Below are positions 4,194 through 33,911 of a stretch of 33,997 bases of DNA, piece by piece. Location: the NCBI GenBank assembly GCA_017412585.1, contig JAFPXK010000039.1, positions 1 through 33,997 of the forward strand, read 5' to 3'. The stretch is from Oscillospiraceae bacterium (GTDB lineage Bacteria > Bacillota > Clostridia > Oscillospirales > Oscillospiraceae). The notes beneath the pieces are model-generated. The model was given only the letters and a program-made list of their open reading frames with translations, made no database searches and was not told where the DNA came from. Every line of letters begins with the position of its first letter. Positions within the stretch are counted from its first letter, which is position 1. The position numbers and the translations under genes are program-made.

Positions 4194-4397
4194 GATGAGG
4201 GGGCGTCTACCGGAAACTTTCCGCGAAATCTCGTGCTCTCGTTGCGGCAAACCGATTTCCAGACCCTTCGGGCCGTGAAAATCGGGCCGCTGCCTTGCGG
4301 CGGGCACGCTTCATCCGCCACAGGCGGCGCTGTGCCCGCACGCCCCCTCATCCGCCCCAGTTTGCGAACTGGGGTACCTTCCCCCCAGGGGGAAGGC
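4194..4397. repeat. Long form of the MITE-like element
   Basis: It begins GATGAGGGGGCG, carries the core CTACCGGAAACTTTCCGCG and about 110 bp of extra sequence absent from the short forms, and ends CGCCCCCTCATCC...CCTTCCCCCC...GGAAGGC. The extra block is nearly identical, inverted, to that in 17019-17261. It sits between glyQS and its apparent T-box leader. Confidence 0.75.
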
Positions 4398-4423
4398 TGT
4401 GAAAAGTTTTATCTTATCGCCCT

Positions 4424-4479
4424 GCCTTCCCCTTGGGGGGAAGGTGGCACGGCCGCAGGCCGTGACGGATGAGGGGGCG
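4424..4479. repeat. Single end-unit of the MITE-like family
   Basis: GCCTTCCCC...GGGGAAGG, the hairpin CACGGCCGCAGGCCGTG, then GGATGAGGGGGCG, without a matching inverted partner on its right. A small CGCCAAGGGCGGGGG hairpin follows at 4485-4500. Confidence 0.75.
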
Positions 4480-4504
4480 ATGATCGCCAAGGGCGGGGGA
4501 ATGT

Positions 4505-5632: not shown

Positions 5633-5771
5633 GCCTTCCCCTTGGGGGGAAGGTGGCACGGCCCAACGGGCCGTGACGGATGAGGGGGCGATTTTGCGGA
5701 AAGTTGCCGGTTGTCGCCCCCTCATTCCCCCCAGTGTGCGCACTGGGGTACCTTCCCCCCGAGGGGAAGGC
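5633..5771. repeat. Short form of the MITE-like element
   Basis: Inverted ends GCCTTCCCC...GGATGAGGGGGCG and CGCCCCCTCATTCC...GGGGAAGGC surround the core ATTTTGCGGAAAGTTGCCGG. The two inner hairpins differ in sequence (CACGGCCCAACGGGCCGTG on the left, CCCAGTGTGCGCACTGGG on the right), yet both remain self-complementary. The remainder of 5515-5864 holds only a CACTGCGCGGAC fragment and the rpsT terminator. Confidence 0.75.
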
Positions 5772-5820
5772 AGGGATGTTTACGTTCCCGTTTTCCATTC
5801 ACCCGCCCCTTTCCGCGCAA

Positions 5821-11396: not shown

Positions 11397-11525
11397 AATA
11401 ATGAATACGGAAGACTGAGGGATGAAAAATCAATCATTATGGTGTCCGCTGCGCGGAGGGGATTTTAATATGTTTGGCGCAAAGGGAACGGGTGTTCTCC
11501 GTAGGGGCGCTTCATGAAGCGCCCG
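11397..11525. repeat. Dispersed fragment (AATGAATACGGAA ... GTGTCCGCTGCGCGGA) and GTAGGGGC palindrome
   Basis: 11397-11462 shares AATAATGAATACGGAA with 7204 and a GTGTCCGCTGCGCGGA tail with 2579 (inverted), 5608 and 25700. 11501-11525 is GTAG plus the palindrome GGGCGCTTCATGAAGCGCCC. Confidence 0.65.
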
Positions 11526-11587
11526 CTTGCCCGGCGGGGGGGTTGATGAAAGGTGTCGTTAGCTGCGGAAAGGCACGCTATTGCCCC

Positions 11588-11728
11588 GCCTTCCCCTCGG
11601 GGGGAAGGTACCCCAGTGCGCACACTGGGGGGGATGAGGGGGCGATTTTGCAGCAACTTACGGTAGGCGGGCGGGTTTCGCCCCCTCATCCGTCAGCTTC
11701 GCTGACACCTTCCCCCCAGGGGGAAGGC
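11588..11728. repeat. Short form of the MITE-like element
   Basis: Ends GCCTTCCCCTC...GGATGAGGGGGCG and CGCCCCCTCATCC...GGGGGAAGGC, inner hairpins CCCAGTGCGCACACTGGG (left) and GTCAGCTTCGCTGAC (right), and a divergent core ATTTTGCAGCAACTTACGG. Confidence 0.75.
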
Positions 11729-11790
11729 GGGGCGATTTTTGTTACCTTTTACCACTCATCCGGTGTTTGGTGATGGGCGATACCGCGTCC

Positions 11791-11903
11791 GGGCCGCCGG
11801 GGGCGTCGGCCCCTACGGTGGGGGGACGATACTGTTTTCCATCCACCCGGCCTTGGCGGTGGCCGTTACCGTATCGCGGGCGATTCGTGAATCGCCCCTA
11901 CGG
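11791..11903. repeat. GGGCCGCC...GTCGGCCC palindrome and inverted two-hairpin repeat
   Basis: 11791-11816 has a GGGCCGCCGGGGGCGTCGGC arm and ends in CCCCTAC; 11839-11903 is CCATCC, a CCGGCCTTGGCGG hairpin, then a GATTCGTGAATC palindrome ending CCCCTAC. Apart from these repeats nothing is visible between 11376 and 11960. Confidence 0.75.
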
Positions 11904-16969: not shown

Positions 16970-16991
16970 GCCTTCCCCCCAGGGGGAAGGC
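16970..16991. repeat. Half-unit of MITE-like end
   Basis: GCCTTCCCCCC/GGGGGAAGGC palindrome, same as at 2437 and in 4380-4397. It is preceded at 16905-16950 by a fragment resembling 11397-11462 (GTGAATATGGAATAATGCATCATTAAG and a GCCCGCTGGGCGGAGGG tail). Confidence 0.6.
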
Positions 16992-17018
16992 TGCGTAGAG
17001 TTTTATCTATTCGTCCCC

Positions 17019-17261
17019 GCCTTCCCCTTGGGGGGAAGGTGGCCCCGCAGGGCCGGATGAGGGGGCGTGCGGGCACAGCGCCGCCTGTGGCGGATGAAGC
17101 GTGCCCGCCGCAAGGCAGCGGCCCGATTTTCACGACCCGAAGGGTCTGGAAATCGGTTTGCCGCAACGAGAGCACGAGATTTTGCGAAAAGCTGCCGGTA
17201 GACGCCCCCTCATCCGTCACGGCCCGTTGGGCCGTGCCACCTTCCCCCCGTGGGGGAAGGC
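17019..17261. repeat. Long form of the MITE-like element
   Basis: Inverted ends GCCTTCCCC...GGATGAGGGGGCG and CGCCCCCTCATCC...GGGGGAAGGC flank about 130 bp. The internal block, including GGTTTGCCGCAACGAGAGCACG, is nearly identical in inverse orientation to 4206-4340. There is no plausible gene inside. Confidence 0.75.
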
Positions 17262-21780: not shown

Positions 21781-22007
21781 AGCATCGCAGATTTCGCGCC
21801 CGCAGGCGCGAACAATTCAGATCAAATTTTCTGACGACATGCACCCCAGGGGTACTGGCTCCACCAACCGCTCATTCTTCGCGGGGTGTCGCTGGCGCGC
21901 GTCAGAAATTTTACTTCTCAGACCACGCAGTGTGCGAGCGCAGCGAGTGCGCGGAGTGGGCTGCAAACCTATTGGCAGGAAAACGGCGCAGCCGTTTTTC
22001 GCCAGCT
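21781..22007. repeat. 227-bp structured repeat, copy 1
   Basis: Begins AGCATCGCAGATTTCGCGCC and ends GCCGTTTTTCGCCAGCT, overlapping the last bases of the mrdA stop codon. Copy 2 is at 26797-27025 in the same orientation, also at a gene end. It contains a CGCGCC/GGCGCG hairpin, a large outer stem (CTGACG with CGTCAG), the 55-nt module (21843-21897), a GCGAGCGCAGCGAGTGCGC hairpin and an AAAACGGC-GCA-GCCGTTTTT hairpin that on the minus strand is a terminator-like structure for mrdA. Any reading frames in it look incidental. Confidence 0.8.
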
Positions 22008-26796: not shown

Positions 26797-27025
26797 AGCA
26801 TCGCAGATTTCGCGCCTCGCAAGGCGCGAACCATGCAAATCAAAATTTCCGGCGGCGTGTACCCCAGGGGCACTTGCTCTGGCAGCCGCTCGTTCCTCGC
26901 GGGCCATCGCTGGCGTACGTCGGAAATTTTACTTCTCAGGCCACGCAGTGTGCGAGCGAAGCGAGTGCGCGGAGTGGACTGCAAGCCCATTGGCAGGAAA
27001 ACGGCGCAGCCGTTTTTCGCCAGCT
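26797..27025. repeat. 227-bp structured repeat, copy 2
   Basis: It aligns end to end with 21781-22007, with the right-hand 115 bp nearly identical. It begins AGCATCGCAGATTTCGCGCC and ends in the AAAACGGC-GCA-GCCGTTTTT hairpin and CGCCAGCT, 1 nt before the U32-gene stop. The first hairpin is extended by a compensatory T-A pair (CGCGCCT/AGGCGCG), and the outer stem changes from CTGACG/CGTCAG to CCGGCG/CGTCGG while keeping pairing. Confidence 0.8.
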
Positions 27026-30505: not shown

Positions 30506-31486
30506 ATGGCAGTAGACGGAAAGGTGCTGCGCATCGCCACGGAGCGCTTCGAGCGGGATAAGGCCGCCCGGGCCGCCAAGGCGGAGCGCCGCCGGCAGCA
30601 GATTTATCGTGACGTGCCCCGCATCCGGGAGATCGAGGAAGAATTGCGCGCCACCATGTCCCAGATTATCTCCGGGGCCCTGCAGCGGGGCACGGACCCT
30701 CTGCCCGCCATCCGGGTGATCCGGGATAAAAACCTGGCCCTACAGCAGGAGCGGCAGGCCCTTCTGCAGCGGTACGGCTATCCCTCCGACGCCCTGGACG
30801 ACGCCCCCGCCTGTCCCCTCTGCGGCGACAGCGGCTACGTCCGGGGCGGCATGTGCCGGTGCCTGAAAAAATACTATCACGATGCCCAGATCGGCCAGCT
30901 CTCCCGTATGCTGGACCTGGGCCACCAGAGCTTTGACACCTTCTCCTTCGACTGGTACAGCCCCCTGCCCGACCCGGAGCTGGGCATCTCCCCCCGGCGG
31001 CAGATGGAGGACAACTACGACCTGTGCCGGGACTTTGCCAACCAGTTCTCCCGCCGCAGCGGCAGCCTGCTGCTCACCGGCGAGCCGGGCCTGGGCAAGA
31101 CCTTCCTCTCCGCCTGCATCGCCCGGGTGGTCAGCGAGGGGGGCCACAGCGTGGTGTACGACACGGCGGGCCACGTTTTCTCCGTGATGGAGTCGGTGAA
31201 GTTCGGCAGGGAGGAGGAGGACGAAGCCCGGCGGTATGACGACTGCGACCTGCTGATCCTGGACGATCTGGGCACGGAGCTGACTACCGCCTTCGTCCAG
31301 AGCGCCCTGTACCAACTGGTGAATGGCCGCCTCATGGCGGGGAAGAGCACCGTCATCTCCACCAACCTGACCCTGGAGGAGCTGGGGGCCAAATACGGCC
31401 GCCAGGTCCAGTCCCGGCTGGAGGGGGAGTACCGCGTGCTGCCCTTCTTCGGCGAGGACATCAGGCTCCAAAAGGCGGCGCGGTAA
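30506..31486 (+). CDS. dnaC: DnaC/DnaI-type helicase loader ATPase
   Basis: An AAA+ ATPase, 326 residues, that loads the replicative helicase at origins or restart sites. The N-terminal part (to about 95) is a charged helicase-binding region. A zinc-finger-like CPLCG...CRC (cysteines 103, 106, 117, 119) matches DnaI proteins. The AAA+ part has Walker A GEPGLGKT (192-199), Walker B LLILDDLG (249-256) and a sensor 1 region STNLTLEEL. GGGAGG lies 9 nt before the ATG, only 3 nt after dnaD. It is followed by the small convergent RNA locus, with no terminator of its own evident on the plus strand. Confidence 0.9.
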   Translation: MAVDGKVLRIATERFERDKAARAAKAERRRQQIYRDVPRIREIEEELRATMSQIISGALQRGTDPLPAIRVIRDKNLALQQERQALLQRYGYPSDALDDAPACPLCGDSGYVRGGMCRCLKKYYHDAQIGQLSRMLDLGHQSFDTFSFDWYSPLPDPELGISPRRQMEDNYDLCRDFANQFSRRSGSLLLTGEPGLGKTFLSACIARVVSEGGHSVVYDTAGHVFSVMESVKFGREEEDEARRYDDCDLLILDDLGTELTTAFVQSALYQLVNGRLMAGKSTVISTNLTLEELGAKYGRQVQSRLEGEYRVLPFFGEDIRLQKAAR

Positions 31487-31511
31487 CCGCCCGGGGCACA
31501 GCGCGGAACGC

Positions 31512-31546
31512 AAAAAACCACACTTGACAATACTGCCAGGTGTGGT
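31512..31546 (-). terminator. Terminator of the minus-strand small-peptide RNA
   Basis: Minus-strand stem ACCACAC/GTGTGGT (31546-31540 with 31523-31517), 16-nt loop, then TTTTTTG. The plus-strand promoter of the antisense RNA lies inside the same sequence. Confidence 0.7.
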
Positions 31547-31551
31547 AAGAT
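31524..31551 (+). promoter_or_regulatory. Promoter of the antisense RNA
   Basis: Perfect TTGACA (31524-31529), 16-bp spacer, TAAGAT (31546-31551; AAGATA at 17 bp is the alternative). The start would be near 31558. Confidence 0.7.
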
Positions 31552-31557
31552 AATGGT

Positions 31558-31664
31558 GAAAGGGATACCGCGACAAGCGGTTGGCCCAAGCAAAATGGTT
31601 AGGTTTTAGGCAAGATGCCTACGAAAACCGTCACCGTGCCGGGTGGCGGTTTTCGCGTTTCTTT
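31558..31664 (+). ncRNA. Candidate antisense RNA, about 105 nt, opposite the small-peptide mRNA
   Basis: It runs from the TTGACA promoter to a 14-bp hairpin CGAAAACCGTCACC/GGTGGCGGTTTTCG (31622-31655) followed by a T-rich CGTTTCTTTA. Inside are ACCGC/GCGGT (31567-31581) and TAGGC/GCCTA (31607-31621), the latter extendable by GGTTTT/AAAACC, which competes with the terminator stem. It is fully complementary to the 3' UTR and the last codons of the minus-strand peptide gene. It has no reading frame with an SD, and no plus-strand gene follows, so a standalone antisense regulator fits better than a leader. Confidence 0.65.
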
Positions 31665-31711
31665 ACAATAATCGTTACCGTATAGGTGCCGATATGTAAG
31701 GTAATCCGCAC
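31631..31711 (-). CDS. 26-residue cationic peptide, candidate type I toxin
   Basis: GTG at 31711 to TGA at 31631 encodes MRITLHIGTYTVTIIV followed by a basic tail with KKRENRHPAR. GGGGGTGA lies upstream with 8 nt from GGGGG to GTG. That SD is the 3' arm of a 6-bp hairpin, ACCTCC-GAAA-GGGGGT (31734-31719), so translation should be blocked unless the hairpin opens. The 5' UTR also contains GCGGTTGGCC (31747-31738), complementary to GGCCAACCGC in the 3' UTR (31586-31577). The stop codon lies inside the hairpin that ends the antisense RNA. Short hydrophobic-plus-basic peptides under SD sequestration and convergent antisense control are hallmarks of type I toxin-antitoxin pairs. Toxicity is inference, and I recognise no family. 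A second GTG nine bases upstream is an alternative start. Confidence 0.6.
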   Translation of the reverse strand: MRITLHIGTYTVTIIVKKRENRHPAR

Positions 31712-31778
31712 GGGCCTCACCCCCTTTCGGAGGTTGTGGCCAACCGCCTGCCGTCAGCGCAGCATCCCTTTCCCGCCC

Positions 31779-31807
31779 ATTGTAGCAAAGGGCCCGATAA
31801 AAGTCAA
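31779..31807 (-). promoter_or_regulatory. Promoter of the small-peptide mRNA
   Basis: Minus-strand TTGACT (31807-31802), 17-bp spacer, TACAAT (31784-31779); the start would be near 31772, giving a 5' UTR of about 60 nt. It sits directly behind the azlD terminator, so the locus is insulated. Confidence 0.75.
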
Positions 31808-31811
31808 TTAT

Positions 31812-31843
31812 TGGCAAAAAAGACGCCCGCGAGGGCGTCTTTT
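31812..31843 (-). terminator. Terminator of azlC-azlD
   Basis: Minus-strand 11-bp stem AAAAGACGCCC/GGGCGTCTTTT, TCGC loop, with a run of T after the stem; 26 nt after the azlD stop. Confidence 0.85.
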
Positions 31844-31869
31844 CCATATTATAAATAGGGTATTGGCGC

Positions 31870-32181
31870 TCAAAACACCGCGTTCACCAGCACCAGGTAC
31901 ACCGCCGTGCCCGCCAGGATGCTCCACAGGCTGCTGCGCCGCCATAGCTGCACCGCCGCCACGGTGAGGCAGGCGATGAGCTCGGGCAGGCCGTAGGGGG
32001 CCGCCGTCAGCGTCACGTCCTTGAGACAGTACACCACCAGCATACCGATGATGGCCGGGGGCAGCACCCGGCCCAGATAGGCGACGTAGGGGGGCGTCCG
32101 CTTGCGGAACACCAGGAAGGGCAGAAACCGCAGCAGCGCCGACACCGCCGCCATCACGCCCACGATAATGGCTGATTTCAT
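31870..32181 (-). CDS. azlD: AzlD family branched-chain amino acid exporter subunit
   Basis: AzlD (BrnE) is the small partner of AzlC in a two-component exporter of branched-chain amino acids. The 103-residue protein has four hydrophobic helices and the family block RFLPFLVFRKRTPPYVAYLGRVLPPAIIGMLVVYCLKD. Its ATG overlaps the azlC TGA by four bases (ATGA), and AGGAGG lies 8 nt upstream, which fixes this start rather than the longer open frame within azlC. A terminator follows. Confidence 0.9.
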   Translation of the reverse strand: MKSAIIVGVMAAVSALLRFLPFLVFRKRTPPYVAYLGRVLPPAIIGMLVVYCLKDVTLTAAPYGLPELIACLTVAAVQLWRRSSLWSILAGTAVYLVLVNAVF

Positions 32182-33729: not shown

Positions 33730-33790
33730 ACAACATCCTGCCCCTTGCCAAACCAACGATACCCTTTATCATCATTGCCAACCCGCAAGC

Positions 33791-33911
33791 GGGCGCTTCA
33801 TGAAGCGCCCCTACAAAGAAAACCGATGCCGTTATGATTACGCCGTAGGGCGGGACGACCCCGGCCCGCCGTGCCGGGGTGACGAATACCGCCAAGGCGG
33901 GATGGATGGCA
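33791..33911. repeat. Further GTAGGGGC-family palindrome and two-hairpin repeat
   Basis: 33791-33814 is GGGCGCTTCATGAAGCGCCC with CTAC. 33845-33911 begins GTAGGGCGGGACG, includes CCCGGCCCGCCG, and ends with the GAATACCGCCAAGGCGGG hairpin and TGGATGG. Confidence 0.7.

Follow-up and report, generated by a model that had tools for sequence, protein, structure and literature searches.

The window, by which we mean the whole 33,997-nucleotide stretch of Oscillospiraceae DNA that was analysed, carries a compact locus at positions 31,512-31,812. A promoter scan placed a minus-strand promoter, TTGACT-17-TACAAT, at 31,779-31,807 and a plus-strand promoter, TTGACA-16-TAAGAT, at 31,524-31,551, each scoring 10/12, and both are present as given in a preliminary description of this DNA. 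The scan found these two in 31,400-31,900, where 50 shuffles gave 0.3 on average. The first would drive a predicted toxin mRNA of about 260 nt (31,510-31,772, minus strand), delimited by promoter, fold and terminator. Within it lies, also as described before, a 26-codon frame (31,631-31,711, minus strand) with a GTG start and a TGA stop, VRITLHIGTYTVTIIVKKRENRHPAR, whose assignment as the predicted toxin uses purifying selection, orthologues and the beta-hairpin predicted for the family. The Shine-Dalgarno (SD) sequence is sequestered by a GAAA-capped hairpin (31,719-31,734, minus strand) that was present both in the sequence and in the predicted fold. The U-tract terminator proposed for this RNA (31,512-31,546, minus strand) formed in the fold of the 263-nt RNA but was not listed by the pattern scan. 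A palindromic terminator-like hairpin at 31,818-31,843 separates the locus from azlC/azlD and suggests that the two are on separate transcripts. Repeats of 60-204 nt, some direct and some inverted, are also scattered over the window, at 2194-2457, 4194-4490, 5674-5775, 11,482-11,901, 16,971-17,228, 21,804-22,007, 26,822-27,025 and 33,742-33,833.

Homologues were strong in the genus and family of the window when 199 whole genomes were examined by blastn. One exact 28-base pattern of the hairpin at the stop codon was found in at least 120 stretches of genome DNA, most of them titled as Oscillospiraceae. Among the matches listed, 80 titles include 31 Oscillospiraceae (12 further titles, from Oscillibacter, Dysosmobacter, Evtepia, Pseudoflavonifractor, Yanshouia and Gemmiger, we take to belong there by genus), 5 Ruminococcaceae, 2 Lachnospiraceae and 1 Verrucomicrobiae, and the remaining titles are mostly unplaced Clostridia. 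Sixteen viral contigs (IMG/VR, L168-L183) also match the pattern, and three unannotated phage records show a weaker similarity. Two candidates, L253 in coding sequence and L112 from Verrucomicrobiae with no frame, were set aside as doubtful or chance matches. Among the matches listed there are 164 unique copies. An SD, a start codon and a frame of 18 codons or more are all present in 133 of them and not in the other 31; full flanks were available for 128 of the 133, giving 127 distinct copies. A covariance model of the core matched 33 of 120 family genomes of at least 90% completeness (22 of 72 genera) and 4 of 299 genomes across the phylum, the window's own included. Two other hydrophobic peptides, at L042 and L043, appear as further payloads on a similar RNA.

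The 263-nt RNA gave a fold of -120.7 kcal/mol (z -7.9) that none of 200 shuffles equalled in stability. The complementary 10-mers reported earlier at 31,738-31,747 and 31,577-31,586 are exact but turned out to be the mere core of a larger structure, in which about 31 pairs are predicted between a 5' UTR arm (31,735-31,772) and a 3' UTR arm (31,558-31,588), both on the minus strand. A covariation analysis of 46 copies found 84 double-changed cells against 24.8 in shuffles; of the 12 hairpin pairs, 9 could not vary, having been fixed by the search pattern. In the consensus structure 94.2% of cells were paired, compared with 32-50% when it was slid. Across the 127 distinct copies, pairing between a copy's own arms averaged -37.0 kcal/mol, compared with -28.4 kcal/mol for its pairing with the arms of others, though the own 3' UTR was the best partner in just 28 copies and among the top 5% in 77; for the window's copy, eight foreign partners outpaired its own 3' UTR. 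In 118 of these 127 copies the predicted fold pairs at least five of the seven SD bases, a count made with no shuffle control.

On the antisense side, promoter and hairpin are conserved at the level of sequence and the RNA itself is predicted. This RNA, of about 105 nt (31,558-31,662, plus strand), would start at the plus-strand promoter and end in a terminator-like hairpin (31,622-31,655, plus strand) that lies over the last codons and the stop of the toxin frame and was recognised by a scan and by its strand stability. Of 124 intact copies, 121 have an antisense promoter that scores 10/12 or better and 82 have one of 12/12, while shuffles reached 10/12 in 3 of 124. The sense promoter was less regular: 83 of the 124 scored 10/12 or better, against 1 in shuffles. 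The 14 pairs claimed for the stop-codon hairpin hold in the plus-strand RNA (-24.5 kcal/mol) but in the mRNA the stem is broken by a C-A mismatch (-18.8 kcal/mol). Because this mismatch reads G-U in the antisense strand, the hairpin is stabler there, and it was so in all 127 copies. The model also found copies that lack the pattern. Once one non-family frame and two duplicates had been dropped, all 16 distinct family copies of this set showed the same bias, although in two of them the difference was a mere 0.1-0.2 kcal/mol. The U-tract that follows the antisense hairpin is weak, CGTTTCTTTA, and this counts against the reading of the locus as a toxin-antitoxin module. The preliminary description had asked whether the antisense RNA would match a known RNA family of some other kind, and Rfam gave no family at gathering score at the locus. 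A scan at loose threshold returned nine matches, all sub-threshold, and the best sub-threshold match (E 0.038) lay over the neighbouring azlD terminator. An excerpt of PMC8040213 reports 3161 structured RNAs predicted from human microbiomes, and the RNA of this locus could be an unnamed one among them.

The frame was examined by dN/dS over its hairpin-free N-terminal part in three length classes, 20 segments of other lengths being left out. Values were 0.078 (16 codons, n = 55), 0.202 (18 codons, n = 33) and 0.326 (17 codons, n = 13), compared with 0.72-3.5 in the other frames. By this measure a small coding frame of fewer than 60 codons, which is a criterion for type I toxin-antitoxin systems, is present. 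Decay of the frame or a lack of purifying selection in homologues had been named as evidence against a toxin; selection was found, but 31 of the 164 copies are without an intact frame. The copy at the orthologous site in genome G026 shows five synonymous changes, and Ile and Val are exchanged at two places. These results bear on the suggestion that the locus is a structured non-coding RNA in which the frame is a coincidence. While the very stable fold is what such an RNA would show, the bias of frame 0 divergence towards synonymous changes and the lack of an Rfam family at gathering score speak against it, and we regard it as the least probable of the explanations considered.

The antisense hairpin spans the last six codons and the stop of the frame. 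In all 133 intact copies the residues at -3 and -1 from the stop are linked as Ser..Lys (77), Ser..Gln (7) or Pro..Arg (49), because the two underlying bases are either a T combined with an A (84 copies) or a C combined with a G (49), at positions that the search pattern had allowed to vary; one exception was found among all 164 copies. At the orthologous site in genome G024, Pro to Ser and Arg to Lys have changed together. The KKRENRHPAR tail is shaped largely by the terminator hairpin of the antitoxin, and this makes a clean case of overlapping constraint in which the stem of an antisense RNA fixes residue pairs in a peptide. One copy, L045, encodes a beta-like peptide in which the strand-forming part is retained and the frame closes immediately ahead of the hairpin, which suggests that the tail can be dispensed with.

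AlphaFold2 was applied to a family member of 30 residues, L142, with 54 sequences, rather than to the window's own peptide, and predicted a beta-hairpin with strands at residues 2-9 and 12-19. The mean pLDDT was 91 for residues 1-20 and 62 for the tail, with a pTM of 0.32. Strand-like amphipathicity exceeded helix-like amphipathicity in 106 of 109 family peptides compared with 2 of 8 Hol_Tox-like neighbours, and the net charge of family peptides averages +5. Their hydropathy does not indicate a transmembrane helix, the best 15-residue stretch averaging 1.29 as against 2.60 in eight Hol_Tox-like peptides. The toxic part is likely to be the predicted beta-hairpin that precedes the KKRENRHPAR tail. 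Seven family peptides gave no match above cut-off in Pfam, where two weak ones scored 12.3 against 27 and 8.4 against 23 bits, and none in NCBIfam, and three scanned against PADLOC gave no match. A literature search by peptide strings and by topic returned no paper containing the strings and, among the matches listed, no title on the family.

Copies are often multiple. Genome G472 has 11 model matches of near full length and G239 also has 11, three being short pieces, and copies lie 240-404 nt apart in nine genomes chosen from the blastn and model matches. Such numbers, together with the long inverted arms, would suit a small mobile MITE-like repeat whose inverted-repeat ends fold and whose frame is incidental. 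Against such a repeat, frame 0 alone has a dN/dS far below 1, and two of the G472 copies (L251 and L259) were seen by eye to be similar beyond the arms and through both promoters. The site beside azlC is, moreover, common to four species. We therefore consider a MITE-like origin very improbable. An empty orthologous site beside azlC was sought and none was found, a close azlC (94-96% identity) occurring just in genomes G003, G024 and G026, all three of which have the locus beside it. That in G003 (L024, G003:C15 near 11,621) is a remnant which has lost the toxin promoter, the SD and the first half of the frame but kept the antisense side. The neighbouring azlC match of G003 has one stop codon inside. 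The window's own genome contains a second, toxin-less remnant (L249, G000:C74:3214-3263) with an antisense promoter of 12/12, which is possibly an orphan antitoxin.

A more general look at decay used 153 distinct pattern copies with 170-nt flanks. Both sides were kept in 123, an antisense promoter without a toxin frame in 23, a frame with no promoter seen at its usual position in 4 and neither in 3. The imbalance of 23 to 4 has a p of 0.0003, to be read with the points that relatives are not independent, that the rule may have missed some starts and that the pattern demands an intact hairpin. When the four promoter-less frames were viewed more widely, L148 showed a promoter of 12/12 at 139 nt past the stop and L121 one of 11/12 at 15 nt past the stop, while L087 and the internally truncated L080 had no antisense promoter within 300 nt; the class that keeps the frame alone is thus two rather than four. 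Loss of the toxin frame more often than of the antisense promoter also speaks against another explanation, in which the product is a micropeptide with a regulatory or signalling role and no toxicity, repressed by the antisense RNA, with the same RNA logic and a different output. Selection, covariation and the antisense promoter are in themselves no proof of toxicity and would also fit such a peptide. The order of loss, the multiple and often tandem copies and a layout matching that of Hol_Tox loci all point away from it, and we think it unlikely.

A search of 98 genomes of the order found Hol_Tox (PF16935) loci in 6, and in four of these the match exceeds the cut-off. Like the present family, they pair their 5' and 3' UTRs, in 10 of 10 loci and always below the mean of their own shuffles, and 8 of the 10 have an antisense promoter of at least 11/12 placed 78-89 nt beyond the stop. 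Their hairpin lies at or after the stop, and the RNA of this family has the same layout, with a convergent promoter some 80 nt beyond the stop. The peptides differ. That of Hol_Tox is a transmembrane helix ending before the hairpin, whereas this family has a predicted beta-hairpin and its frame enters the RNA hairpin, and none of seven family peptides scanned matched PF16935. One locus, L039 in genome G041, joins the two: it encodes a Hol_Tox peptide (25.7 bits against a cut-off of 23.3), and it is 91% identical to the window's 5' UTR over 42 nt (blastn, E 4.4e-9) and was found by the covariance model at 1.5e-4.

Among other type I systems, Fst/RNAII and BsrG/SR4 also place a small toxin under an antisense RNA, as is proposed here, and BsrG is a helical membrane toxin of a different sequence. 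Fst too is a helical membrane toxin unlike the present peptide in sequence, and the membrane type I toxins covered in an extract of PMC8309996 are transmembrane helices, which the present peptide with its lower hydrophobicity is not, a point against the proposed module. The txpA/RatA system of Bacillus subtilis, as given in part of PMC3531473, is similar in its convergent antisense RNA over the 3' end of a toxin mRNA of about 270 nt, compared with about 260 nt predicted here. Its antisense RNA is in about 15-fold excess and the duplex is degraded by RNase III (same extract); here the antisense promoter is the better conserved of the two. RatA is the longer RNA, probed past nt 169 with an overlap of about 120 nt according to the same text. 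TxpA belongs to a different toxin family, the peptide here having no Hol_Tox match. In CD2517.1-RCd8 and its kin, from the clostridium Clostridioides difficile, the toxin gene likewise converges on and overlaps an antisense gene, but their toxins have 50-53 residues and a predicted transmembrane domain (PMC6563280, in part).

Frame selection, covariation, conservation of the antisense promoter, decay that takes the toxin first and the Hol_Tox layout together support what the preliminary description had proposed, and we consider it probable that 31,512-31,812 is a type I toxin-antitoxin module whose toxin, a predicted beta-hairpin, would be silenced at the mRNA level by the antisense RNA. What the sequence shows is the selected frame, two promoter-like sites, UTR arms whose pairing covaries, a hairpin at the SD and another, terminator-like, in the last codons; we infer that the peptide is toxic and that the plus-strand RNA acts as its antitoxin. 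The module would be a new kind of toxin payload on a known toxin-antidote design. In the mechanism we propose, the full-length toxin mRNA would fold into a poorly translated form and the antisense RNA of about 105 nt, made from the better-conserved promoter, would pair with its 3' UTR and with the last part of the frame, the duplex perhaps being cut by RNase III by analogy with txpA/RatA. Were the antisense RNA exhausted by loss of the locus or by stress, the peptide would be made and may act as a cationic amphipathic beta-hairpin, with the membrane as a target guessed from charge and amphipathicity. This peptide seems to have been swapped in for a helical Hol_Tox toxin, or the reverse, on a common RNA chassis.

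We lean, with some reserve, towards a wider claim: that no earlier type I toxin family has the form of a cationic beta-hairpin in place of a membrane helix, that its RNA chassis is exchangeable and also serves helical Hol_Tox toxins, and that the antitoxin terminator is written into the C-terminal codons of the toxin with base pairing dictating residue pairs. If true, a new toxin fold would be added, payload exchange on one regulatory RNA would be demonstrated and more than 100 loci of gut Clostridia would be explained. Cultured carriers exist, among them Vescimonas fastidiosa MM35 and Evtepia gabavorous KLE1738, so direct testing is possible. Two copies (G019:C2) lie in the gap between nadE and a LysR gene, where no gene is annotated in NZ_AP023416.1 of Vescimonas fastidiosa MM35, and seven places in this record were matched by blastn.
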